Shown piece after piece: positions 4,653 to 63,823 of a stretch of 64,000 nucleotides of DNA. The stretch is from Clostridia bacterium. GTDB taxonomy: Bacteria > Bacillota > Clostridia > Oscillospirales > Acutalibacteraceae. The notes beneath the pieces are model-generated. The model searched no databases and had not been told where the DNA came from. It was given only the letters and a program-made list of their open reading frames with translations. Numbering within the stretch: the first letter of the stretch is position 1; every line of letters begins with the position of its first letter. The DNA is taken from assembly GCA_017516745.1 (NCBI GenBank), contig JAFXBF010000014.1:146187-210186 (forward strand), read 5' to 3'. A program made the position numbers and the translations under genes.

Positions 4653-4687
4653 AAAAAAGTTCAGCGGTTTTGCCGCCGAACTTTTTT
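4653..4687 (-). terminator. Intrinsic terminator of the SCP2/transketolase operon
   Basis: The stem AAAAAAGTTC...GAACTTTTTT with a GC-rich upper part stands immediately after the SDR stop codon on the minus strand and is followed by a T tract. Confidence 0.85.
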
Positions 4688-4688
4688 G

Positions 4689-5708
4689 TTATTCGCCCTT
4701 CATTTCAAGGAGCTTGACCTTACCGTCGTAGGAAGCCTGGCTGACCTTGATTGAATCGAAGATAGCTGCTCTGATATCGTCCTCTGTTGCGCCGAGCTCA
4801 ACGGAGTACTTGCGGTCGATAAACAGGTTGAGAGCCATAATATCTGCAAGTCCGTCAACATCGATACCGCTTTCAATGCCCTTTTCGGCATATTCCTTCT
4901 TAACGCCGCCGAGACCCATACGCATCATCCAGGGAGCAACGCTGATAACCTTGCGGTTTGCGCCCATACCACGTGCTTCATAAACTATCTTGAGGAATTC
5001 CTTCCAGGTCTGGTTGTACATACTGATGGGCCATGCTGTTGCGCCCTTGGACTTTTCAGCCGCACCGACAATAACCTCACCGACCTGACGGACTGTGAGC
5101 ATAGCTGTACCGCCGCCGGGGTACATTGTGAAGGGAAGCTTATCCATCATCTTAATCTGCTCGATAAGGATAACCCAAACGGGCTTTCTGCCGGGCTGTG
5201 TGCCGAAGATGTAGGGAAGCTCGAGAACAGCAACATCAAAGTTTTCATCAGCAAAGGAGAAGGCAACCTCTTCCTGGTCGATTCTGCTGCGGATGTAGGG
5301 GTGCTTTTCTGTGAGCTTCATATCGGGACGCTCCTTTGCAAGGTATGCAAAGTAGGAGCCGAGGATAACGGCGTTCTTCATTCCGATTTCCTTACATATG
5401 GGGAGAAGTCTCTTAAGGGGAGCAATGTTGCACTTGTAGTAAAGGTCGTAAACAGGTGCGGGAGCTTCAACTCTTTCGTCAACGCCTGCGGCGAAAACAA
5501 AGCAGTCGCAGCCTGTCATCATTTCCTTGATTTCCTCATCGCTCTTTTCGTAGAGGTTGCAAAGCTCAATTTCCATCTCTTCGGGGATGGGAGCTCCTTC
5601 GGGGAGAGGGGGAAGAGCAACGCTCTTTACCTGATGGCCTCTCTCAATGAAAATTCTTGCGGCCTCACAGCCCAGAAGACCTGTGCCGCCAATCATAAAT
5701 ACTTTCAT
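4689..5708 (-). CDS. NAD(P)-dependent epimerase/reductase (extended/atypical SDR)
   Basis: A 339-residue Rossmann-fold protein with the nucleotide-binding loop GGTGLLG at residues 7-13. The SDR active-site region shows Ser118 (ILGSYF) and Tyr138, but the expected YxxxK is YIRSR, so Arg142 replaces the catalytic Lys. This is seen in some atypical SDRs and leaves the reaction uncertain (reduction, epimerisation or a non-catalytic role). It is the last gene of a six-gene minus-strand operon with two tandem-SCP2 proteins, an aminotransferase and a split transketolase, so the substrate is probably a product of those enzymes. The start has a GGAAA-type site. Confidence 0.85.
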   Translation of the reverse strand: MKVFMIGGTGLLGCEAARIFIERGHQVKSVALPPLPEGAPIPEEMEIELCNLYEKSDEEIKEMMTGCDCFVFAAGVDERVEAPAPVYDLYYKCNIAPLKRLLPICKEIGMKNAVILGSYFAYLAKERPDMKLTEKHPYIRSRIDQEEVAFSFADENFDVAVLELPYIFGTQPGRKPVWVILIEQIKMMDKLPFTMYPGGGTAMLTVRQVGEVIVGAAEKSKGATAWPISMYNQTWKEFLKIVYEARGMGANRKVISVAPWMMRMGLGGVKKEYAEKGIESGIDVDGLADIMALNLFIDRKYSVELGATEDDIRAAIFDSIKVSQASYDGKVKLLEMKGE

Positions 5709-5790
5709 CGCAGTGAAGTTTCCTTTCGTGGAATATTCTTTTTAACATCAAGCAGAGCAGTAGGTTGTACTGCTCTGCAAATTAGTTTTA

Positions 5791-6609
5791 TTAACCCTGT
5801 GCGTATGCGCCGACCTGCATCATAAAGTCGCCGAGCTGTGCACCGAATTCGGGAGCACCGTCCATAATCAGCTTGCCTGCCTTAACGGATTCAAGCATAT
5901 CAGCTGTCTGCATAAGAATGCCCAGTGCGCTGTCGAAATTGTCGAAACGCATTGTGAAGAACGGCATGGCTCTCTTGTATTCGCCACGGCCTGCTCTTGA
6001 CTTACCTGCCTTGATGCGGATGTATGCGCTGACCTCGGGATAGCCGTTGACAGCCCATGAGTAAACACGGTCGGGGCTCTTTGAGGTCCAGTCGTGAATA
6101 GCATCGTGGCCGTTCTTGTTAAGTGTGCTGATACCGCTGGAAAGCAGGTAGAAGTAGCACTTGACAAGCAGCTTCTTTGTTTCCTCGTCCTCGGGTGCTT
6201 CCTTAGCTGTGAGGAGGGAGGACATCTTGAGCAGAACCATCATAAAGGATGCAAAAGCGCCTGTGTGCTTTGCAATACCCTTCATTTTGGGGATGTACTG
6301 CGGCTTAATCTGACCCTTGAAGAAAGCGTTGAGTGCCTCGATGCTCTTGAATTCAAGCTCAACGTGTGCGTTGTTGGTCAGCTTATCTGTGTGAACAATC
6401 CACTCGCCGTTGTTTACAACAAGATGTGTGCCAACCTTGCCTTCGGGAACGTCGGGGCACAGCGCACTTATCTGATAGATTGTGTGAGCGTGCTCAAACT
6501 TCTTTTTAAGGTTGGGAACATCGTTTGCGATGACCTTGATGAGCGGGATTGCAGCACAGAGGAAAATTTTATTGGTAAAAACGTCGTCTCTTGTGGACAT
6601 AAAAATCAA
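5791..6609 (-). CDS. Tandem SCP2-like lipid-binding protein B
   Basis: A 272-residue cytosolic protein without signal or membrane segments. It contains two half-repeats resembling the sterol carrier protein 2 fold. The N-terminal half has a strand-rich part ending in the helix-forming LEFKSIEALNAFFKGQIKP, and the C-terminal half has MRFDNFDSALGILMQ and LIMDGAPEFGAQLGDFM, which mirror the usual SCP2 ending (activation of binding groove, then a long helix). It is a diverged paralogue of the first gene of the operon (9832-10608). It probably binds or presents a hydrophobic substrate to the enzymes encoded around it. The ligand is not known. Confidence 0.72.
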   Translation of the reverse strand: MIFMSTRDDVFTNKIFLCAAIPLIKVIANDVPNLKKKFEHAHTIYQISALCPDVPEGKVGTHLVVNNGEWIVHTDKLTNNAHVELEFKSIEALNAFFKGQIKPQYIPKMKGIAKHTGAFASFMMVLLKMSSLLTAKEAPEDEETKKLLVKCYFYLLSSGISTLNKNGHDAIHDWTSKSPDRVYSWAVNGYPEVSAYIRIKAGKSRAGRGEYKRAMPFFTMRFDNFDSALGILMQTADMLESVKAGKLIMDGAPEFGAQLGDFMMQVGAYAQG

Positions 6610-6638
6610 TCCTTTCTGCCGTGAAGTTTAATTTTGTA

Positions 6639-7649
6639 TTAAACTTCGTCGTCCCAATCGTCGTCAAGCTCAAAGTCTGCGTTCATTGCTTCACGAACGG
6701 CGGCGATGATGCCGTTGGAGTCAATGCCGAGTGAGGACATAATGTCTTCGTGCAGACCGATGGGTGCAAACTGATCCTGAATACCAAGGCGCTTGAATGC
6801 ACAGCCCTTACCTGTTTCGGCAATGACCTCTGCAACTGCTGCGCCGAGACCGCCGATAACGGAGTGGTCTTCAACAGTGATGATACGGCGTGTGTCCATA
6901 ATAGCCTTTACAACAGCTTCCTTATCAAGGGGCTTGATTGTATGCATATTGATAACACGAACCTTAAGACCGTCTGCGTTCTCAAGGAAGTTGGCAGCCT
7001 GAAGTGCCTGGAAAGCACAGGAACCGCAAGCGATAACCGTGATGTCTGTACCTTCCTTAAGCTGAACAGCCTTGCCTACCTCGAAGCCGTAGTCTGTCGT
7101 TTCGTAGAGAACACGGTCGAAGCCACGGTTGATACGGATATAGTAGGGGCCGGGGTTCTCGTATGCTGCACGGACTGCGTTGACTGTCTCAAGACCGTCA
7201 GCAGGGCAGATAAGAGTGATGTTGGGCATTGAGCGTACAACAGCCATATCGCAGATTGCGTGGTGTGTTGAGCCTGCCTGGCCGAAGGATGTACCTGCGT
7301 GTGTAGCAATAATCTTTGCGTTAACGTTCTGGTAGCAGATATCTGTGTGGAGCTGGTCTGCACTTCTGAGTGAAGCGAAAACGGAGAAGGTGGAAAGGAA
7401 GGGAACAAGACCTGCCCTTGCCATACCTGCTGCAACGCCGAACATATTCTGCTCTGCGATACCTACGTTGAAGTATCTGTCCGGGAAAGCTTCGCCGAAC
7501 ATACCGATTTTTGTTGATTTACCAAGGTCAGCCGTGAGAGCGACAACATCGTCGTGCTCCTGACCGAGTTCTACGAGCGTTTTGCCGTAGTATTCAGCTG
7601 TTGAGAAAGCTGTAGATTCAGTAGCTGTGTAAGTAAGTCCACCTGCCAT
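6639..7649 (-). CDS. Transketolase, C-terminal subunit
   Basis: A 336-residue pyrimidine-binding (PP) plus C-terminal transketolase-domain subunit. Seen in the sequence: AVTADLGKSTKIG near residue 38, the cofactor-activating Glu in NVGIAEQNM, the AGTSFGQAGSTHHAICDMAVVR segment, and the C-terminal Rossmann-like domain ending in IQDQFAPIGL. It pairs with the thiamine-diphosphate-binding subunit encoded just upstream (3-base gap), so the two act as one heteromeric enzyme transferring two-carbon ketol units. Split transketolases occur both in pentose metabolism of archaea and clostridia and in secondary-metabolite clusters; the operon context here favours a dedicated biosynthetic role. Confidence 0.92.
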   Translation of the reverse strand: MAGGLTYTATESTAFSTAEYYGKTLVELGQEHDDVVALTADLGKSTKIGMFGEAFPDRYFNVGIAEQNMFGVAAGMARAGLVPFLSTFSVFASLRSADQLHTDICYQNVNAKIIATHAGTSFGQAGSTHHAICDMAVVRSMPNITLICPADGLETVNAVRAAYENPGPYYIRINRGFDRVLYETTDYGFEVGKAVQLKEGTDITVIACGSCAFQALQAANFLENADGLKVRVINMHTIKPLDKEAVVKAIMDTRRIITVEDHSVIGGLGAAVAEVIAETGKGCAFKRLGIQDQFAPIGLHEDIMSSLGIDSNGIIAAVREAMNADFELDDDWDDEV

Positions 7650-7652
7650 GGC

Positions 7653-8522
7653 TTATGCACCCTCCTTTTCTGCTCTTTCGCAGCGCTTCTTGTAGAACGC
7701 CTCGAGGCTCTTCTTTGCAAGCTCGTACTTTTCTTCGTTAAGTGCGCCGTAGTGCCACTTGTAGTCGTTTTCCATATAGTCAACGCCGCAGCCCTTGACT
7801 GTGTTTGCAACAATCATAACGGGCTTCTCTGTGTTTTCGTATGCGTAGTCAATAGCTTCGCAAAGCTCCTTGATGTTGTTACCGTCAACCTCGATAACGT
7901 GGAAGCCGAAGGAGCGCCACTTGTCGCAGAAGGGCTCAAGCTTCATAACTTCTTCTGTCGGGCCGTCAATCATGCACTGGTTACGGTCAACAAAAGAGAT
8001 AACGTTTGTGATGTTGTAGTGAGCAATTGTCATTGCAGCTTCCCAGTTGGAGCCTTCGTCGCATTCGCCGTCGCCGAGGATGCAGAAGGTCTTGTAATCC
8101 TTACCCTTGATTCTTGCTGCGAGAGCTGTACCTGCAGCAATTGAAAGGCCGTGGCCGAGAGAGCCTGTGGAGGCGTCTGCGCCCTTAACCTTGTTGGAGT
8201 CAAGGTGAATACCCATCTTGGAGTTGGAAAGGTTGAAGGTCTTGAGCTGCTCGGGGTTATTGTAGCCGTAGTCGCAAAGGACTGCTGCATAAGCAACGCC
8301 TGCGTGACCCTTACTGAGGATAAAACGGTCTCTGTCCTCCCAGTTGGGGTCTTCTTTGTCGAGGTGCATATACTTGTGGTAGAGAACAGTCATCATATCC
8401 ATGACGCTCATACCGCCGCCGATGTGAGCGGAGCCTGCCCAGAAGGTTGTATCGAGGCAGAGTTTACGCAGCTCATGAGCCTTTTTTTCGAGTGCAAGCC
8501 ACTCTTGTTTGGTCAATGGCAT
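7653..8522 (-). CDS. Transketolase, N-terminal (thiamine diphosphate-binding) subunit
   Basis: A 289-residue subunit carrying the thiamine diphosphate/Mg motif GDGECDEGSNWEA...NRNQ-type (here VDRNQ) at about 149-181, and the substrate-site His residues in GSAHIGGGMS, SKGHAG and GSLGHGLS. Length fits split N-terminal transketolase subunits. It lies between the aminotransferase gene (31-base gap) and the C-terminal subunit gene (3-base gap). All key residues are present, so an active enzyme is expected. The donor and acceptor sugars cannot be deduced. Confidence 0.93.
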   Translation of the reverse strand: MPLTKQEWLALEKKAHELRKLCLDTTFWAGSAHIGGGMSVMDMMTVLYHKYMHLDKEDPNWEDRDRFILSKGHAGVAYAAVLCDYGYNNPEQLKTFNLSNSKMGIHLDSNKVKGADASTGSLGHGLSIAAGTALAARIKGKDYKTFCILGDGECDEGSNWEAAMTIAHYNITNVISFVDRNQCMIDGPTEEVMKLEPFCDKWRSFGFHVIEVDGNNIKELCEAIDYAYENTEKPVMIVANTVKGCGVDYMENDYKWHYGALNEEKYELAKKSLEAFYKKRCERAEKEGA

Positions 8523-8553
8523 TTTGTTTTCCTCCTGTATTAAAAATTTTCAA

Positions 8554-9816
8554 TTAAAAGAGTTCGGGGTGATTTGCGGCAACAACCTTGAATGCTTCGT
8601 CAGCAACCTCGAGTGTGAGGTTGATGTCCTTGTCGCTCATTGCGGCATTCATGAAGTGGTTGTGGTGGCTGGAGAAGAAGATACCTCTCTTGACACACTC
8701 TGCAACCCACTCCTGGTGGAGCATCATGGAGTTGTCGTTTGCAATTCTGAGGTAGAAGAGTGCAGGCTCACCGGAAACGACAAGGTTGAAGCCGTTGTTT
8801 TCGGCGGCAGCCTTGAGGCCGTTTGTGAGCATGAGACCCTTTTCACGGAACAGCTTGGGAGTGTCAAGTTTCTTCATCTTTTCGATACAGGCCATACCTG
8901 CTGCGAAGGGAACGGAGCTGAGCCAGTAGCTGCCGGTGTAGCTGAGTGAGCTGACAGCGCTCTTGAGGGACTCCTTACCGCAAAGGCAGGAAACGTTCCA
9001 GCCGTTTGCAATGGCCTTACAGAAGCAGATAAGGTCAGCCTCAAAGCCGTAGTAGTGGTCGGAGCCTGCAAGGTCAAGACGGAAGCCGCAGCGAACGTCA
9101 TCAACGATAAGAACGATGCCCTTGCGTGTGCAGAGCTCACGAACCTTCTGCCAGTAGCCCTCTGCAGGTGTTTCGTTGTCCTTGTAGTTGCCGTGCATAT
9201 AGGGTGTGGAAATGAAAGCGGCGATTTCGCCTTCGTTTTCTGCAACTAACTTTTCGAGTGCCTCGAAATCGTTCCAGTCAACATAGAGGTTGTTTGCAAC
9301 ATCCTCGGGGATAACGCCGGGGTAGTCAACCTTCTGTGTCCAGGGAGAAACGCCGTGATAGAAGCCGTTAACGAAGATGATCTTCTTGCGGTGTGTGGCT
9401 GCACGTGCAGTCATGATAGCGGCTGTTGTAACGTCGTTACCGTTCTTTGCGAAGAATGCCCAGTCTGCACAGTTGACTGTGTCAACCATAAGCTCTGCAA
9501 AATCAACGGTGATTCTGCTGGGAGAGGTTGTGCAGTTGCCCATCTTGGACTGTGCAATAGCTGCTGCATCGACATCCTTGTCGCAGTAGCCGAGAACGTT
9601 GGGGCCGTAGGCACACATATAGTCGATGTACTTGTTGCCGTCAACATCCCAGAAGTATGCGCCCTTTGCCTTGTCGCCGAAAAGCGGCCAGTCGCAAACG
9701 GGGATGAAGTTACCCTCTGCCGGGCCGAGGTGGCCGTAAACACCTGAGGGGATTACCTTTGTTGCTCTGTCGAAGAGCTCACGGCTTACTTTATGTTCGT
9801 AAATGGGAAAACTCAT
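8554..9816 (-). CDS. Class III PLP aminotransferase (glutamate-1-semialdehyde aminomutase-like)
   Basis: A 420-residue fold-type I aminotransferase. The PLP Schiff-base lysine is Lys267 in FCKAIANGW, preceded by the cofactor-binding Asp in LIVDDVRCGFR. The N-terminal part with PSGVYGHLGP and YIDYMCAYGPNVLGY is GSA-aminomutase-like. True haem-pathway HemL is unlikely because no other tetrapyrrole gene is nearby and the flanking genes encode transketolase and SCP2 proteins. A plausible role is amination of a keto group made by the transketolase, comparable in logic to HpnO in hopanoid side-chain amination. That comparison is inference. Confidence 0.88.
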   Translation of the reverse strand: MSFPIYEHKVSRELFDRATKVIPSGVYGHLGPAEGNFIPVCDWPLFGDKAKGAYFWDVDGNKYIDYMCAYGPNVLGYCDKDVDAAAIAQSKMGNCTTSPSRITVDFAELMVDTVNCADWAFFAKNGNDVTTAAIMTARAATHRKKIIFVNGFYHGVSPWTQKVDYPGVIPEDVANNLYVDWNDFEALEKLVAENEGEIAAFISTPYMHGNYKDNETPAEGYWQKVRELCTRKGIVLIVDDVRCGFRLDLAGSDHYYGFEADLICFCKAIANGWNVSCLCGKESLKSAVSSLSYTGSYWLSSVPFAAGMACIEKMKKLDTPKLFREKGLMLTNGLKAAAENNGFNLVVSGEPALFYLRIANDNSMMLHQEWVAECVKRGIFFSSHHNHFMNAAMSDKDINLTLEVADEAFKVVAANHPELF

Positions 9817-9831
9817 TGTCGTGCACCTCCG

Positions 9832-10608
9832 TTATGCTAAGTACAGAGCTACTCTGTCGAGTATTCTGTTAAGGTTATCGATCATATTGATCATGCCCTT
9901 CATCGTGATTGTACCTTCACCGATGCAGGCAACGGCATTGACCTTGCCGTCGAAAAGGTCACGTGCCAGGTCGAGGTTTGCAAATTCCATAGCGGCACGG
10001 GGATTTTCGCTTGCCTTCTTGATTGTGACAAGGCGGTGATCCTTTACACGGATAGTTGCCGCAACACAGTCCTTGATGCCGAAAGCGATTTCGCCGTCGG
10101 GAATAAGGTGGGCGGAGAACTTACCGATCTGGTCGTTGTTTGCAATCTGTGCAAGAGCAACGGCGATTGTGTAGAACATCAGCTTTGTGCTGGTCTCAAA
10201 GAACTCTCTGTCCTCAAGGTCCTTCGGGTCGGGACGCATAAGAGCGGAAAGTCTGTCAGTAAGCGGTGTGAAGACCTTGAGCAGGAACTTGATGTGCTGG
10301 AAGCCCTTTGAGGGGATGGGTGTTACCGTGCCGTCGATAAGACCGTTGAACTTATCAACTGAGCTGAACGGAAGCTTAACGTCACAGTTTGTGCAGCCCT
10401 GCTCCATGCGGCAGCGGCCGTTTTTGAAATAAAGTGTGGCCTTGGGGCCGTCGGCAACGTCGAAGCCAATTGAAATGGGCTTCTGGTTTGAAAGCATTGC
10501 GGAAGCGACGGGGTCGATTTCGCAAAGGTTTTCAAGCGTACCGAGAACGGCGTACATGTTTATGTAGGCCATTGTCTTTGAGTCTGTCAATGTGATATGA
10601 TCTGTCAA
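9832..10608 (-). CDS. Tandem SCP2-like lipid-binding protein A
   Basis: A 258-residue soluble protein, first gene of the operon. The C-terminal half (about 150-258) has the SCP2 pattern: strand-rich IAFGIKDCVAATIRVKDHRL, a helix (ENPRAAMEFANLDLARDLF), then GKVNAVACIGEGTITMKGMI and a long terminal helix. The N-terminal half has a second, weaker copy. It starts at TTG 10608, eight bases after a perfect TAAGGAGG; the nearby ATG is out of frame, so the TTG start is well supported. It is paralogous to 5791-6609. It is expected to bind a hydrophobic ligand; the ligand is unknown. Confidence 0.72.
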   Translation of the reverse strand: MTDHITLTDSKTMAYINMYAVLGTLENLCEIDPVASAMLSNQKPISIGFDVADGPKATLYFKNGRCRMEQGCTNCDVKLPFSSVDKFNGLIDGTVTPIPSKGFQHIKFLLKVFTPLTDRLSALMRPDPKDLEDREFFETSTKLMFYTIAVALAQIANNDQIGKFSAHLIPDGEIAFGIKDCVAATIRVKDHRLVTIKKASENPRAAMEFANLDLARDLFDGKVNAVACIGEGTITMKGMINMIDNLNRILDRVALYLA

Positions 10609-10680: not shown

Positions 10681-10710
10681 ATTTTAACAAAATATTATAA
10701 TACTTGTCAA
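10681..10710 (-). promoter_or_regulatory. Promoter of the SCP2/aminotransferase/transketolase operon
   Basis: On the minus strand TTGACA (10705-10710) and TAAAAT (10681-10686) are separated by 18 bases, about 70 bases before the TTG start of the first gene. The leader between them and the gene contains a GC-rich segment (GGCGCAGTGCC...GGGC). The rest of 10711-10862 is AT-rich with no gene seen. Confidence 0.7.
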
Positions 10711-10862: not shown

Positions 10863-10891
10863 TTGACAAGCATTTTTTTAAGGATTATAAT
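10863..10891 (+). promoter_or_regulatory. Consensus sigma-A promoter for the ECF S-component
   Basis: TTGACA (10863-10868), a 17-base spacer and TATAAT (10886-10891) give a perfect match. It also shows that a TTG codon at 10863 cannot be the gene start. Confidence 0.88.
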
Positions 10892-10916
10892 ATCAGAAAA
10901 TAAAAAGACGAAAGAG

Positions 10917-11435
10917 ATGAACCAAATGAAAAACAAAACAAAAAAGCTCGTGCTGGCAGCACTTCTGGCAGCGCTTACCTGTGTGGCGACAATGGTGATA
11001 CGTATTCCGTCACCGCTTCACGGCTACATAAATCTGGGTGACTGTATAGTTCTTGTTTCGGGTTGGCTTCTCGGCCCTGTTTACGGTCTGCTTGCCGCAG
11101 GCATAGGCTCAGCCCTTGCGGATGTCTTTGCAGGTTATTTTGTCTATGCACCTGCAACCTTTGCAATAAAAGGTCTTATGGCGCTTGCCGCATATTTCAT
11201 ATTCAAGGCATTGTCAAACACCAAAATGTCCAAAGCAGGCTACATAATCAGCGGTATCGTTGCAGAATTAATAATGATAGGCGGCTACTTCATTTTTGAA
11301 GGCTTTATGTACGGCTTCGGTGCGGTGCTTGTCAATATTCCGCCAAACGCCGTCCAGGGCGTTGCAGGCATAATCGTCGGCACATTGCTGATAACGGTTA
11401 TCAACAAAACACATATTGCAAAAAGACTGATGTAA
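10917..11435 (+). CDS. ECF transporter S component (substrate-binding membrane subunit)
   Basis: A 172-residue integral membrane protein with about six spans: a basic N-terminus (KNKTKK), then the hydrophobic LVLAALLAALTCVATMV, and the loop INLGDCIVLVSGWLLGPVYG followed by AAGIGSALADVF, a hallmark of vitamin-type S components. It partners with a shared energising module (EcfA, EcfA', EcfT) encoded elsewhere to import a vitamin or cofactor precursor. The exact substrate cannot be told. The start is ATG 10917, or ATG 10926 nine bases later. It is monocistronic, with a strong promoter and a terminator. Confidence 0.88.
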   Translation: MNQMKNKTKKLVLAALLAALTCVATMVIRIPSPLHGYINLGDCIVLVSGWLLGPVYGLLAAGIGSALADVFAGYFVYAPATFAIKGLMALAAYFIFKALSNTKMSKAGYIISGIVAELIMIGGYFIFEGFMYGFGAVLVNIPPNAVQGVAGIIVGTLLITVINKTHIAKRLM

Positions 11436-60504: not shown

Positions 60505-60969
60505 ATGATTACAGGCAAAATGACAGATTTCAACCGTTACTATTCAATCGACCCCACATTTGAAGCGGCACACAGGTTCTACAACGAATTTGTTGCCGAG
60601 CCGAAGGAAAGCGGCGAATACGTAATTATACCCGATAAGCTCAAGGCTATTGTTGCAACAAACGAGCTTGACGACGCAGACACAAAGAATTTCGAGGCAC
60701 ACCGTGCCTATGCCGACATTCAGGTTATCGTAAAGGGTACGGAGCGCATAGACTGGGCAGACCTTGACACCTGCGGTGCTGTTGTAAGCGAGGAATACTC
60801 AAAGGGTGGCGACATCGCTTTTTATGAAGACCCCGAGTTTGTAAGCGAGGTAACGCTTTACGAGGGCGGCTTTATGGTTATGTTCCCCGAGGATGCACAC
60901 AAGCCCTGCGTTAAGCCCTGCGAAAACGCTGCGCCTGCAACAAAAATCGTGTTTAAAGTAAAGCTTTGA
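60505..60969 (+). CDS. YhcH/YjgK/YiaL family protein
   Basis: A 154-residue cupin-like protein of the family called beta-galactosidase subunit beta. Visible motifs: NFEAHRAYADIQVIVKGTERIDW (about 65-87, with metal-binding His and Glu), then YEGGFMVMFPEDAHKPC (about 117-133). Members are linked to sialic acid or other sugar catabolism and may act as anomerases. It is the first gene of the GH16 operon (17-base gap), an unusual pairing with beta-glucan-type hydrolases. Confidence 0.88.
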   Translation: MITGKMTDFNRYYSIDPTFEAAHRFYNEFVAEPKESGEYVIIPDKLKAIVATNELDDADTKNFEAHRAYADIQVIVKGTERIDWADLDTCGAVVSEEYSKGGDIAFYEDPEFVSEVTLYEGGFMVMFPEDAHKPCVKPCENAAPATKIVFKVKL

Positions 60970-60986
60970 TTCAAGGAGGAATAAAA

Positions 60987-61922
60987 ATGTTTGAAAAGTT
61001 TTTAACCGAAACGCTTAAGCTTGCTCCCAGACAGATGTGGGGCGTTGAACAGATTGGAGTTTACTTCAAAAAGCTCTTTTCCGCAAAGGGCGCAAAGGCA
61101 GTTATTGCCTGCATCGTTGCAATTGCGGAGCTGCTCGGCCTTGTTGTTTTCGACTTTGCAACGACACCGCGCGGAGATGCGCTTGACCTTACGGGCTACA
61201 GCCTCGTTTTTGAGGACGAGTTCGAGGGTGATTCGCTCAACCTTGACGACTGGAGATACGTTGCGAGCGGCCCCGACAGAGGCGGCTTCAATTCACCTGA
61301 GCAGGTTTCAGTCAAGGACGGCAACCTTTTCCTGACGGGTGAATATAAGGAAGACGGTAATTACGGCGCAGGCTGGTACGGTGCCGACATAGCTCTCAAC
61401 GAGTGGTACAAGCAGGGCTATTTCGAAATCAAGTGCAAGGTAAACGCAGGCGGCGGCTTCTGGTCAGCCTTCTGGATTCAGGCAAAGCACCCGTACGAGG
61501 CGCAGTATTCACAGGGCGGTGTCGGCGGCGCAGAGCTTGACATTTTTGAAGCAATGGGTTGGAACGAATTAGGCAATCACAACGCCGTTGCACAGACAAT
61601 TCACTGCGCGGGCGTAGGCGGCGTGCAGGAGGGCTTCCAGTCGCGTATGCTCGGCTGCTTCAAGGGCAACAACATCTACGACGAATACAACACCTACGGC
61701 CTGAAGTGGACTGAGGATGAATACATATTCTACGTAAACGGTGTCGAAACCGTGCGCTCAACCTTTGGCGACGGCGTTTCGCAGGTTGAGGAGCAGGTAA
61801 GAGTTTCGCTGTGCATTCCCACTGCGGAGGAGCTTGAAAAGCTCGACAAGGAAACCTACAACAACAGCTTCGTTGTTGACTACGTAAGAATTTATCAGCC
61901 CACGCTCACGTCGGTTGATTAA
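60987..61922 (+). CDS. GH16 family glycoside hydrolase, membrane-anchored, copy 1
   Basis: A 311-residue enzyme. An N-terminal amphipathic/hydrophobic portion with one span (about 35-55, AVIACIVAIAELLGLVVF) replaces a normal signal peptide. The jelly-roll starts at GYSLVFEDEFEG (about 70-81). The catalytic motif is ELDIFEAM (Glu183, Asp185, Glu188), with WSAFWIQA before it. Expected to cut beta-1,3 or mixed beta-glucans or related galactans. ATG 60987 follows AAGGAGGA. It is the first of three tandem copies of identical length. Confidence 0.9.
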   Translation: MFEKFLTETLKLAPRQMWGVEQIGVYFKKLFSAKGAKAVIACIVAIAELLGLVVFDFATTPRGDALDLTGYSLVFEDEFEGDSLNLDDWRYVASGPDRGGFNSPEQVSVKDGNLFLTGEYKEDGNYGAGWYGADIALNEWYKQGYFEIKCKVNAGGGFWSAFWIQAKHPYEAQYSQGGVGGAELDIFEAMGWNELGNHNAVAQTIHCAGVGGVQEGFQSRMLGCFKGNNIYDEYNTYGLKWTEDEYIFYVNGVETVRSTFGDGVSQVEEQVRVSLCIPTAEELEKLDKETYNNSFVVDYVRIYQPTLTSVD

Positions 61923-61938
61923 TAATCGGAGGAACAAA

Positions 61939-62874
61939 ATGTTTGAAAAGTTTTTAAGAGAAACCCTGAAAATGGCTCCCCGTCAGATGTGGGGCGTTGA
62001 GCAGATGGGCGTATACTTCAAAAAACTCTTTTCCGCAAAGGGCGCAAAGGCGGTTATCGCCTGCATTGTTGCAATTGCAGAGTGCTTCGGTCTTGCAATT
62101 CTCGATTTGCCCACAACTCCCCGTGGACAGGAGCTTGATTTAAGCAGCTATGCCCTTGTTTTTGAGGACGAGTTTGAGGGCAACGCACTCAACACGGATG
62201 TGTGGCAGTACAGAGGAAGCGGCCCGAGAAGAGGCGGCTTTAACGCAGAAAGCCAGGTAAGAGTAGAAAACGGCAATATGATTATCACAGGCGATTATCA
62301 GTCCGACGGCACCTACGGTGAGGGCTGGTACACAGGCATGGTAAAGCTCAAGGAGCGTTATTGCAAGGGCTATTTTGAAATCCGCTGTATTGTAAACGAA
62401 GGCTCGGGCTTCTGGTCAGCCTTCTGGATTCAGGCAGATGCTCCCTATACCGCTTCCGTTTCAAAGGGTGGCCCGGGCGGCTGTGAAATTGATATTTTCG
62501 AGTCAATGAGCTACGATAATTTCATTGGCAAAAACTCCGTTGCACAGACTGTTCACTGCGCAGGCGTTGACGGTGTACAGGAGGGCTTCCAGTCACTCAG
62601 GCTCGGCGATTTCTACGGCAAGAACATATATAAGGAATATAACACCTACGGTCTTGAGTGGACTGATGATGAGTATATTTTCTACATCAACGGCGTTGAA
62701 ACAAGACGCACCTCCTTTGGTAACGGCGTTTCTGAGGTTATGGAAGACGTCATAGTTTCCCTCGAAATCCCCGAGGGTGAAAAGCTGGAGGCTCTTGATA
62801 AAGAAAACTACAGCACAGAGTTTGTAGTTGATTACGTTAAAATCTATCAGCCTACCCTTACGGCAGTAAAGTAA
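61939..62874 (+). CDS. GH16 family glycoside hydrolase, membrane-anchored, copy 2
   Basis: A 311-residue paralogue of the preceding gene, 16 bases after it. The N-terminal 60 residues are nearly identical to copy 1. The catalytic motif is EIDIFESM (Glu183, Asp185, Glu188). Changes concentrate in the substrate-binding loops (for example YCKGYFEIRCIVNEGSGFW). SD CGGAGGAA. It probably arose by tandem duplication and now has a slightly different specificity. Confidence 0.9.
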   Translation: MFEKFLRETLKMAPRQMWGVEQMGVYFKKLFSAKGAKAVIACIVAIAECFGLAILDLPTTPRGQELDLSSYALVFEDEFEGNALNTDVWQYRGSGPRRGGFNAESQVRVENGNMIITGDYQSDGTYGEGWYTGMVKLKERYCKGYFEIRCIVNEGSGFWSAFWIQADAPYTASVSKGGPGGCEIDIFESMSYDNFIGKNSVAQTVHCAGVDGVQEGFQSLRLGDFYGKNIYKEYNTYGLEWTDDEYIFYINGVETRRTSFGNGVSEVMEDVIVSLEIPEGEKLEALDKENYSTEFVVDYVKIYQPTLTAVK

Positions 62875-62887
62875 AAGAGGTAATAAA

Positions 62888-63823
62888 ATGTTTGATAAAT
62901 TCTTAACTGAAGTTTTAAAGCTTGCTCCGTGGCAGATGCACGGCGTTGACCTTCAGAGAAAGTACCTGAAAAAAGCGTTTACCGCAGGCTCCGTCAAAAA
63001 AGCAATAGCCGCAATTCTCATTGTTTTCGAGCTTATAGGTCTTACGGTTTTCGACAACCCCATCCGACCGCTTGGCGACGAGCTTGACCTTACTGGCTAC
63101 TCTCTTGTTTTTGAGGATGAGTTTGAAGGCGATGCACTCGATACAACCGTCTGGGATTACAGAGGTCTTGGCGCACGCAGAGGCGGATTTAACGCAGAAA
63201 GCCAGGTAAAGCTTGAAGACGGCAAAATGATTATGACGGGCGAATACCTTGAAGACGGTACCTACGGCGAAGGTTGGTACACAGGTATGCTCAAGCTCAA
63301 GGAGCGTTACTGCAAGGGTTATTTTGAAATCCGTTGTATTCTTAACGAAGGCTCGGGCTTCTGGTCAGCCTTCTGGATTCAGGCAGATGCACCCTACACC
63401 GCTTCCGTTTCAAAGGGAGGTATAGGCGGCGCAGAAATTGATATTATGGAAAGCTATAACGACGAAAACCACAAGCGTTACGAATCTGTTGCACAGACAA
63501 TCCATTGCGCAGGTGTAAACGGCGAAACGGAGGGCTATCAGTCCGAGCGTCTGGGCTATTACACGGGCAACAACATTCACGAGGAATACAACACCTACGG
63601 CCTTATGTGGACGGATGATGAATACATCTTCTACGTAAACGGTGTCGAAACCTGCCGCAGCTCGTTTGGCAACGGCGTTTCTGAGGTGTTCGAGGACGTT
63701 ATCGTTTCCCTTGAAATACCCGACGAAGAAAAATTGGCAGGTCTCGATAAAGAAAACTATAAAACAGAATTTATCGTCGATTACGTAAAAATCTATCAGC
63801 CCAAGCTCACAGCAGTAGATTAA
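62888..63823 (+). CDS. GH16 family glycoside hydrolase, membrane-anchored, copy 3
   Basis: A third 311-residue paralogue. The catalytic domain is closest to copy 2, with motif EIDIMESY (Glu183, Asp185, Glu188). The N-terminal anchor region (APWQMHGVDLQRKYLKKAF) is more diverged than in copies 1 and 2. It ends the operon before a terminator. AAGAGGT precedes the ATG. Confidence 0.9.
   Translation: MFDKFLTEVLKLAPWQMHGVDLQRKYLKKAFTAGSVKKAIAAILIVFELIGLTVFDNPIRPLGDELDLTGYSLVFEDEFEGDALDTTVWDYRGLGARRGGFNAESQVKLEDGKMIMTGEYLEDGTYGEGWYTGMLKLKERYCKGYFEIRCILNEGSGFWSAFWIQADAPYTASVSKGGIGGAEIDIMESYNDENHKRYESVAQTIHCAGVNGETEGYQSERLGYYTGNNIHEEYNTYGLMWTDDEYIFYVNGVETCRSSFGNGVSEVFEDVIVSLEIPDEEKLAGLDKENYKTEFIVDYVKIYQPKLTAVD

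Follow-up and report, generated by a model that had tools for sequence, protein, structure and literature searches.

The central question raised by this locus is what a class III aminotransferase, a split transketolase and two proteins of the SCP2 fold, a fold that binds many lipids, are doing together in one operon. Open reading frames and Pfam matches across the window (the whole 64-kb stretch of DNA that was analyzed) confirmed six minus-strand genes at 4689-10608 (Table 1). Taken from SCP2a to SDR, the gaps between them are 15, 31, 3, 38 and 82 bases by their coordinates, and inspection of the sequence revealed GGAGG- or AAAGG-like stretches ahead of the starts. The sequence-only reading had described just such a closely spaced unit with ribosome sites at this place, and in these respects it stands. 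The host genome (G000) is a 2.9 Mb draft that is 97% complete.

Table 1. Genes and candidate non-coding elements of the cassette region (positions in the window)
Feature	Position	Strand	Description
SCP2a	9832-10608	-	258 aa; protein with a tandem SCP2 fold, partner of AT
AT	8554-9816	-	Class III aminotransferase, 420 aa, FumI-like; Pfam PF00202
TKN	7653-8522	-	Split transketolase, N-terminal (TPP-binding) half, 289 aa; PF00456
TKC	6639-7649	-	Split transketolase, C-terminal half, 336 aa; PF02779, PF02780
SCP2b	5791-6600	-	269 aa; second protein with a tandem SCP2 fold, partner of the transketolase
SDR	4689-5708	-	Epimerase-family extended SDR with distant similarity to HpnA; found in the window's genus only, outside the core
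Promoter	10681-10710	-	TTGACA-18-TAAAAT, TG before the second hexamer; 11/12 consensus matches; probable sigma-70
Terminator	4653-4687 (about)	-	Hairpin and T run after the last gene; probable rho-independent; read by eye
Hairpin	5752-5778	-	11 pairs, between SCP2b and SDR; no T run on the minus strand

The operon is real, and its core consists of five genes, SCP2a–AT–TKN–TKC–SCP2b. From 111 distinct cassettes (L031-L157 plus the window) we kept the 80 with at least 5.5 kb of downstream sequence, and 76 of these show all five genes in this order on one strand, a degree of conservation far beyond chance. The gene-neighborhood search that the sequence-only reading had proposed thus finds the order kept well beyond close relatives, although not for all six genes: the SDR was found in 6 distinct cassettes, as against 78 cassettes with at least 6.2 kb downstream, and its carriers encode an SCP2a at least 88% identical to that of the window. 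The spacing at the head of the cassette is equally regular, for in 104 of the 105 distinct cassettes that had 1.5 kb of room the starts of SCP2a and AT lie 600-1300 bases apart, AT coming second.

The exceptions to the common order are informative. One cassette (L067) has its blocks swapped, and three others (L047, L072 and L076) show only SCP2a–AT; the TKN–TKC–SCP2b block lies on a separate contig in G043 (the genome of L047), in G022 (that of L076, where SCP2b is distant at 118 bits) and in G249. The swapped and separate-contig cases therefore divide the core into two blocks, SCP2a–AT and TKN–TKC–SCP2b. Across 70 loci, pairwise distances of the five core proteins correlate at 0.68-0.88, as expected from joint inheritance, with shared species history contributing.

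Within one bacterial order the cassette is widespread. In the sample of 200 genomes from the window's family, 48 encode SCP2a, and these represent 32 of 135 genera; in the order sample 9 of 245 genomes do so, while in the class sample of 291 SCP2a was found in the window's own genome only. A scan of contigs from named genomes returned 503 stretches encoding an SCP2a relative, of which 80 loci were retained. The nearest named relatives are Clostridia bacterium MAGs of sheep and goat gut, and other carriers bear the names Oscillospiraceae, Ruminococcaceae and Clostridiales; those named AS10/AS15/AS23, DTU or ADurb are presumably of anaerobic-digester rather than gut origin. All 45 genomes of the family sample with SCP2b also carry SCP2a, and just three of the 48 SCP2a genomes (G077, G188 and G198) are without SCP2b. 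Outside the family, SCP2b is missing from four of the five SCP2a genomes (G234, G239, G307 and G320).

Around the core there is little that recurs. Among 113 loci no non-core neighbor family occurs in more than 18, antisense reading frames of core genes aside; with a minority of neighbors annotated individually, the flanks gave no conserved aldehyde-forming, N-acylating or head-group gene. Genes inserted in or adjoining the cassette include an exonuclease/phosphatase-family protein, a GNAT protein and a nucleoside phosphorylase family protein, the others having been named by eye.

The assignment of both small proteins as tandem SCP2 folds holds more by structure than by sequence. Pfam SCP2 matches SCP2a below threshold (E 0.004, C-terminal half only) and does not match the window's SCP2b, though weak matches appear in 3 of 40 SCP2b members, and searches of PDB sequences with the SCP2a and SCP2b profiles found no SCP2 relative. 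The AlphaFold2 models (pLDDT 92.1 and 92.2) predict the SCP2 helix and strand pattern twice per chain, and Foldseek leads from these models to SCP2 proteins, with best E values of 1.2e-5 for SCP2a and 2.6e-4 for SCP2b and TM-scores of about 0.5-0.7 when normalized by the length of the single-SCP2 targets. Structure prediction, which had been suggested with the original tandem-SCP2 claim as a check on the cavities, is therefore in agreement with it as to the fold. UbiJ (6h6o), SCP-2L (6z1w) and the C-terminal domain of the alkylsulfatase SdsA1 share the predicted fold, but SCP2a and SCP2b differ from them in having two SCP2 units per chain, and identity is low. Profile comparison (hhalign 96.3%, E 1.7e-9) identifies the two as distant paralogues. 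The SCP2a set (A1) comprised the window and 44 of 47 references, L046 and L074 (internal stop) and L077 (short) being excluded; L076, also flagged with an internal stop, was retained, its reading frame being whole. The SCP2b set (A2) comprised the window and 39 of 41 references, without L036 (contig edge) and L056 (truncated), and sets A3 and A4 the window with 50 of 55 and 55 of 57 references.

The substrate range of class III aminotransferases can be wide. Among solved structures the closest relative of AT is FumI, the aminopentol aminotransferase of Sphingopyxis sp. MTA144 (PDB 6hbs), with 299 bits and an alignment that spans residues 12-414 of the 420 in AT; the best glutamate-semialdehyde aminomutase follows at 149 bits. 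Judged by these scores AT is nearer FumI than any other solved class III aminotransferase, and the two share a branch of that class. FumI takes the C2 amino group off hydrolyzed fumonisin B1, as described in part of PMC2933618. It belongs to fumonisin degradation, and the passages that describe it mention no transketolase or SCP2 partner, unlike the situation of the cassette AT. Passages of PMC9858248 note that fumonisins are similar to sphinganine and report that FumUPTA, a FumI homologue, uses pyruvate to form 2-keto-HFB1; they also report that with two of the three FumI homologues no 2-keto product formed, the sole product being a species of m/z 448.

The best solved relatives of the two transketolase halves are 6yak (TKN) and 6yaj (TKC), the split transketolase of Carboxydothermus hydrogenoformans, which has the same two-chain architecture. 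For residue comparison 88 TKN and 80 TKC sequences were aligned with E. coli TktA, and E. coli numbering is used here. H26, H66, H100 and H261 are invariant in all 88 TKN sequences, as are E411, H461 and H473 in all 80 TKC sequences; H26, H66, H100, H261, E411 and H473 we take to be TPP and proton-relay residues, and to judge from the alignment this machinery is complete. The residues that presumably contact the substrate phosphate (R358) and the acceptor hydroxyl (D469) fare differently, R358 being replaced by A in 76, S in 2 and T in 2 of the 80 TKC sequences and D469 by A in all 80, while R91 is N in all 88 TKN sequences. R520 and S385 are retained in every TKC. With R358 and D469 gone throughout and R520 kept, the cassette enzyme departs from the residue pattern of a sugar-phosphate transketolase, and it seems to have no need for a phosphorylated, alpha-hydroxylated acceptor. 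The C. hydrogenoformans enzyme, as read from the alignment, retains the equivalents of R358 and D469, whereas the cassette TKC does not.

Protein engineering provides some context for these replacements. According to passages of PMC6310800, D469 is salt-bridged to R91 and H100, so the joint loss of D469 and R91 is coherent, and D469T in E. coli transketolase raises activity on propanal fivefold. Passages of PMC5573996 state that D469E/T perform better on aliphatic aldehydes, that wild-type, charged transketolase sites can also accept aliphatic aldehydes, that the reaction is reversible, and that the phosphate contact R520 is R528 in yeast numbering. The substitutions reported at D469 for aliphatic aldehydes in these passages are T and E; the A of the cassette is absent from them.

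Two alternatives bear directly on these residues. An ordinary housekeeping transketolase with unrelated neighbors might come to mind, as split transketolases are common in Clostridia. The idea is extremely improbable and was rejected, contradicted as it is by gene order and residue data: the host genome has a second split transketolase (G000:C23) that retains R358, D469 and R91, the five-gene order is strict, and the distances among the five proteins are correlated. The other alternative confines the cassette to sugar chemistry: its enzymes would belong to an amino-sugar or imino-sugar pathway, and the SCP2-fold proteins would be lipid-free scaffolds. These enzyme families do also work on sugars or small amino acids, and R520 and S385 have been kept; such a pathway is nonetheless very unlikely against the replacement of R358, D469 and R91 throughout, the kinship of AT to FumI and the presence of two tandem SCP2 proteins. 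It was because of the residue losses and the AT kinship that we set the amino-sugar pathway aside as a main reading. The sequence-only reading had proposed an amino-sugar-like or amino-alcohol group on a hydrophobic carrier, perhaps an unusual aminolipid; its amino-sugar variant falls with the loss of R358 and D469 in 80 of 80 sequences and with FumI as nearest relative, and lipid-linked amino-alcohol chemistry survives as the best reading.

The best reading also refines that idea, in that the lipid itself would be the substrate: a fatty aldehyde and a C2 ketol would be interconverted with a 1,3-dihydroxy-2-ketoalkane, and this in turn with a 2-amino-1,3-diol. Sphingoid-type amino-diols are suggested by the FumI kinship, by the loss of R358, D469 and R91, and by the position of SCP2a–AT beside an SPT–KDSR pair in other genomes, and the probable role of the cassette is to make or break sphingolipid-type backbones, along a route apparently not described before. 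Our main reading, to which we would give a probability of roughly 0.45, is that it forms a self-contained module for sphingoid-type long-chain bases in which serine palmitoyltransferase (SPT) is not required. The split transketolase would take a fatty aldehyde presented by SCP2b and add to it a C2 ketol drawn from a ketose phosphate or hydroxypyruvate; SCP2a would hand the resulting 1,3-dihydroxy-2-ketoalkane to the FumI-like AT, and amination at C2 would give a 2-amino-1,3-diol such as sphinganine. Together the two enzymes would do what SPT and 3-ketosphinganine reductase do elsewhere, producing the same functional groups. SPT joins serine to acyl-CoA by PLP chemistry, whereas the cassette would use TPP chemistry on an aldehyde and has no alpha-oxoamine synthase. 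It is from the observed gene order, families, folds, residue changes and distribution that we infer substrates, products, direction and the role of each SCP2 protein as carrier for its neighboring enzyme, a specific proposal that falls short of demonstration.

A lipid ketol system of another class would share much of this logic, either as DesAB-like cleavage of a steroid or terpenoid side chain or through a non-sphingoid amino-alkanediol lipid. SCP2 folds, after all, bind lipids of many kinds. A lipid-linked split transketolase has a precedent in DesAB, the steroid-17,20-desmolase from Clostridium scindens, which has been proposed to act on a lipid ketol as we propose for the cassette (passages of PMC3735941); compared by description only, the desABCD operon differs in carrying an HSDH and a transporter, with no aminotransferase reported there. 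A linked hydroxysteroid dehydrogenase and symporter of the DesAB type are not conserved beside the cassette, where, antisense reading frames aside, no non-core family exceeds 18 of 113 loci and a minority of neighbors were annotated individually. In addition, AT is closest to the aminotransferase of a linear sphinganine analogue and SCP2a–AT adjoins SPT–KDSR, and another lipid class is accordingly quite unlikely.

The link to SPT comes from two genomes of one genus in another family (G307 and G320), where SCP2a–AT directly precedes SPT, followed by a KDSR-like SDR. The G307 SPT scores 436 bits with a solved SPT and 536 bits with its best model, NCBIfam SerpalmtaseCFB (cut-off 640), and the SDR 229 bits with its own best model, that of 3-ketodihydrosphingosine reductase (cut-off 400); for the SPT of L172 the figures are 436 bits with a solved SPT and 262 bits with the highest-scoring solved enzyme of any other name. 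This compact pair, which has the same end product as that proposed for the cassette, thus joins SCP2a–AT directly, and AT beside SPT may interconvert base and ketone. Of 398 genomes examined in the window's family, 13 encode SPT of the G307/G320 type, as do 35 of the 245 in the order sample; no match reaches 640 bits, the curated cut-off for NF047600, and full-length ones lie at 489-553. G100 was left out of the count because its match lies in a biotin operon, and G045 was kept even though a contig end truncates its SPT. Of 31 SPT loci, 26 have a KDSR-like gene no more than about 2 kb away, 24 of them on the same strand, and beyond KDSR no conserved SPT neighbor naming later lipid steps was seen.

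The host genome itself has no NF047600 match at E <= 1e-100. Within the family none of the 13 SPT genomes carries SCP2a, a query that does find SCP2a in the positive order-sample genomes; this exclusion is statistically weak (P 0.06 with 10 genomes, 0.03 with 13, 0.11 by genus). Outside the family, SPT is present in four of five SCP2a genomes, compared with 35 genomes of the 245 that make up the order sample (P about 0.002 if 225-245 genomes are assumed; a single genus accounts for two of the four). The remaining SCP2a genome, G249 (60% complete), has SCP2b but lacks SPT. Thus in these samples SCP2a–AT occurs with either TK–SCP2b or SPT and not both, save in G077, G188 and G198, which have neither; the transketolase block in the four SPT genomes was judged from SCP2b alone, numbers are small and genera are not independent.

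These associations also inform the direction of the pathway. The same chemistry in reverse would serve catabolism of dietary, host or bacterial sphingoid bases, with AT deaminating C2 and the transketolase cleaving the 1,3-dihydroxy-2-ketone to a fatty aldehyde and a C2 unit passed to a sugar phosphate. Many of the 80 named loci come from animal-gut MAGs, and the 0 of 13 SPT genomes with SCP2a would also fit consumers that are not producers; some carriers' names, that said, presumably denote anaerobic digesters and not guts. FumI itself is catabolic (part of PMC2933618), transketolase is reversible (passages of PMC5573996), and for DesAB the proposal is cleavage of a steroid side chain that feeds the pentose phosphate pathway (passages of PMC3735941). 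Against this, SCP2a–AT is joined to the biosynthetic SPT–KDSR pair in G307 and G320, and no catabolic neighbor is conserved, with a minority of the neighbors annotated individually. For these two reasons we rank synthesis as more likely than breakdown, and catabolism as rather unlikely.

Synthesis of sphingoid bases by the cassette is not free of difficulties. SCP2a–AT coexists with SPT in four genomes without SCP2b; base synthesis would not call for AT there, and a plain substitution for SPT therefore fails to explain its presence. The three family genomes in which SCP2a–AT has neither SCP2b nor SPT beside it (G077, G188 and G198) also count against this reading. Canonical transketolase, moreover, sets a C3 configuration opposite to that of natural sphinganine, which means that either face selectivity differs in the cassette enzyme or the product is a threo base. 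We advance only tentatively, and with somewhat less assurance than the main reading, the broader proposal of a second natural sphingoid route, combining TPP ketol transfer and transamination with one tandem-SCP2 carrier per enzyme and replacing SPT and ketosphinganine reductase in many uncultured gut (perhaps digester) Oscillospirales-type bacteria.

The sphingolipids that gut bacteria make find their way to the host, and the usual genome screen for them looks for the SPT gene alone. If the cassette uses transketolase chemistry to make or break sphingoid backbones, such screens have missed a large group of gut bacteria, and organisms scored as having no sphingolipids for lack of SPT might make them. 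Transketolase would also gain a natural lipid substrate, with a replacement at D469, the very residue engineered for aliphatic aldehydes. No report of the SCP2a–AT–TKN–TKC–SCP2b cassette appears among the matches listed in the open-licence PMC literature, and transketolase and aminotransferase are not mentioned in the part of PMC11765627 consulted.

Less can be said of the signals that would control transcription. An Rfam scan of the window, L079 and L094 returned tRNAs only, with no riboswitch upstream. A promoter-like site and a hairpin with a T run lie where the sequence-only reading had placed promoter and terminator, but the region holds 7 promoter-like sites against a shuffle mean of 6.2 and 7 terminator-like sites against a mean of 7.0, so that both elements are plausible, short of proven. 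Near the candidate terminator, a program scan recovered a related stem at 4664-4676, on the plus strand only.

Of the 84 distinct cassettes whose upstream sequence extends to 3.5 kb or more, 13 carry two further genes upstream of SCP2a and on the strand opposite to it, one for another aminotransferase of class III and one for a class II aldolase; L157 is one such locus, and the same arrangement recurs in 12 others (e.g. L040, L051, L074, L100 and L125). This aminotransferase, of about 490 aa, is nearer to glutamate-semialdehyde aminomutase models, the aldolase was recognized in two matched stretches, and the pair may belong to a linked pathway of C-C bond chemistry. G022, a carrier with a small genome, has an iron-dependent alcohol dehydrogenase and a PdxS-like gene, the latter named by eye, after SCP2a and the cassette aminotransferase.

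In the window itself, an 11-pair hairpin may separate expression of the SDR from that of the core. The S-component gene divergent from the operon is of the Pfam riboflavin type, its ThiW match being sub-threshold. Because a perfect TTGACA-17-TATAAT match overlaps its mechanically called start, the gene probably begins at a later ATG.

Sphingolipids are seldom expected in the window's order. Serine palmitoyltransferase (SPT) genes are present in many of its uncultured genomes (35 of 245 sampled), most of those examined having a KDSR-like neighbour.

Coordinates of features in the window and at compared loci
Feature	Position	Remark
Hairpin	window 5752-5778	between conserved core and genus-specific SDR
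Promoter-like match	window 10863-10891	
ECF-type vitamin transporter S component	window 10863-11435	divergent from operon
GH16-family proteins	window 60966-63823	three tandem paralogues
Second aminotransferase and aldolase	L157:6915-9686	strand opposite SCP2a
Alcohol dehydrogenase and PdxS-like gene	L076:4365-6542	G022
SPT loci	L207-L216, L230-L232, L234-L264
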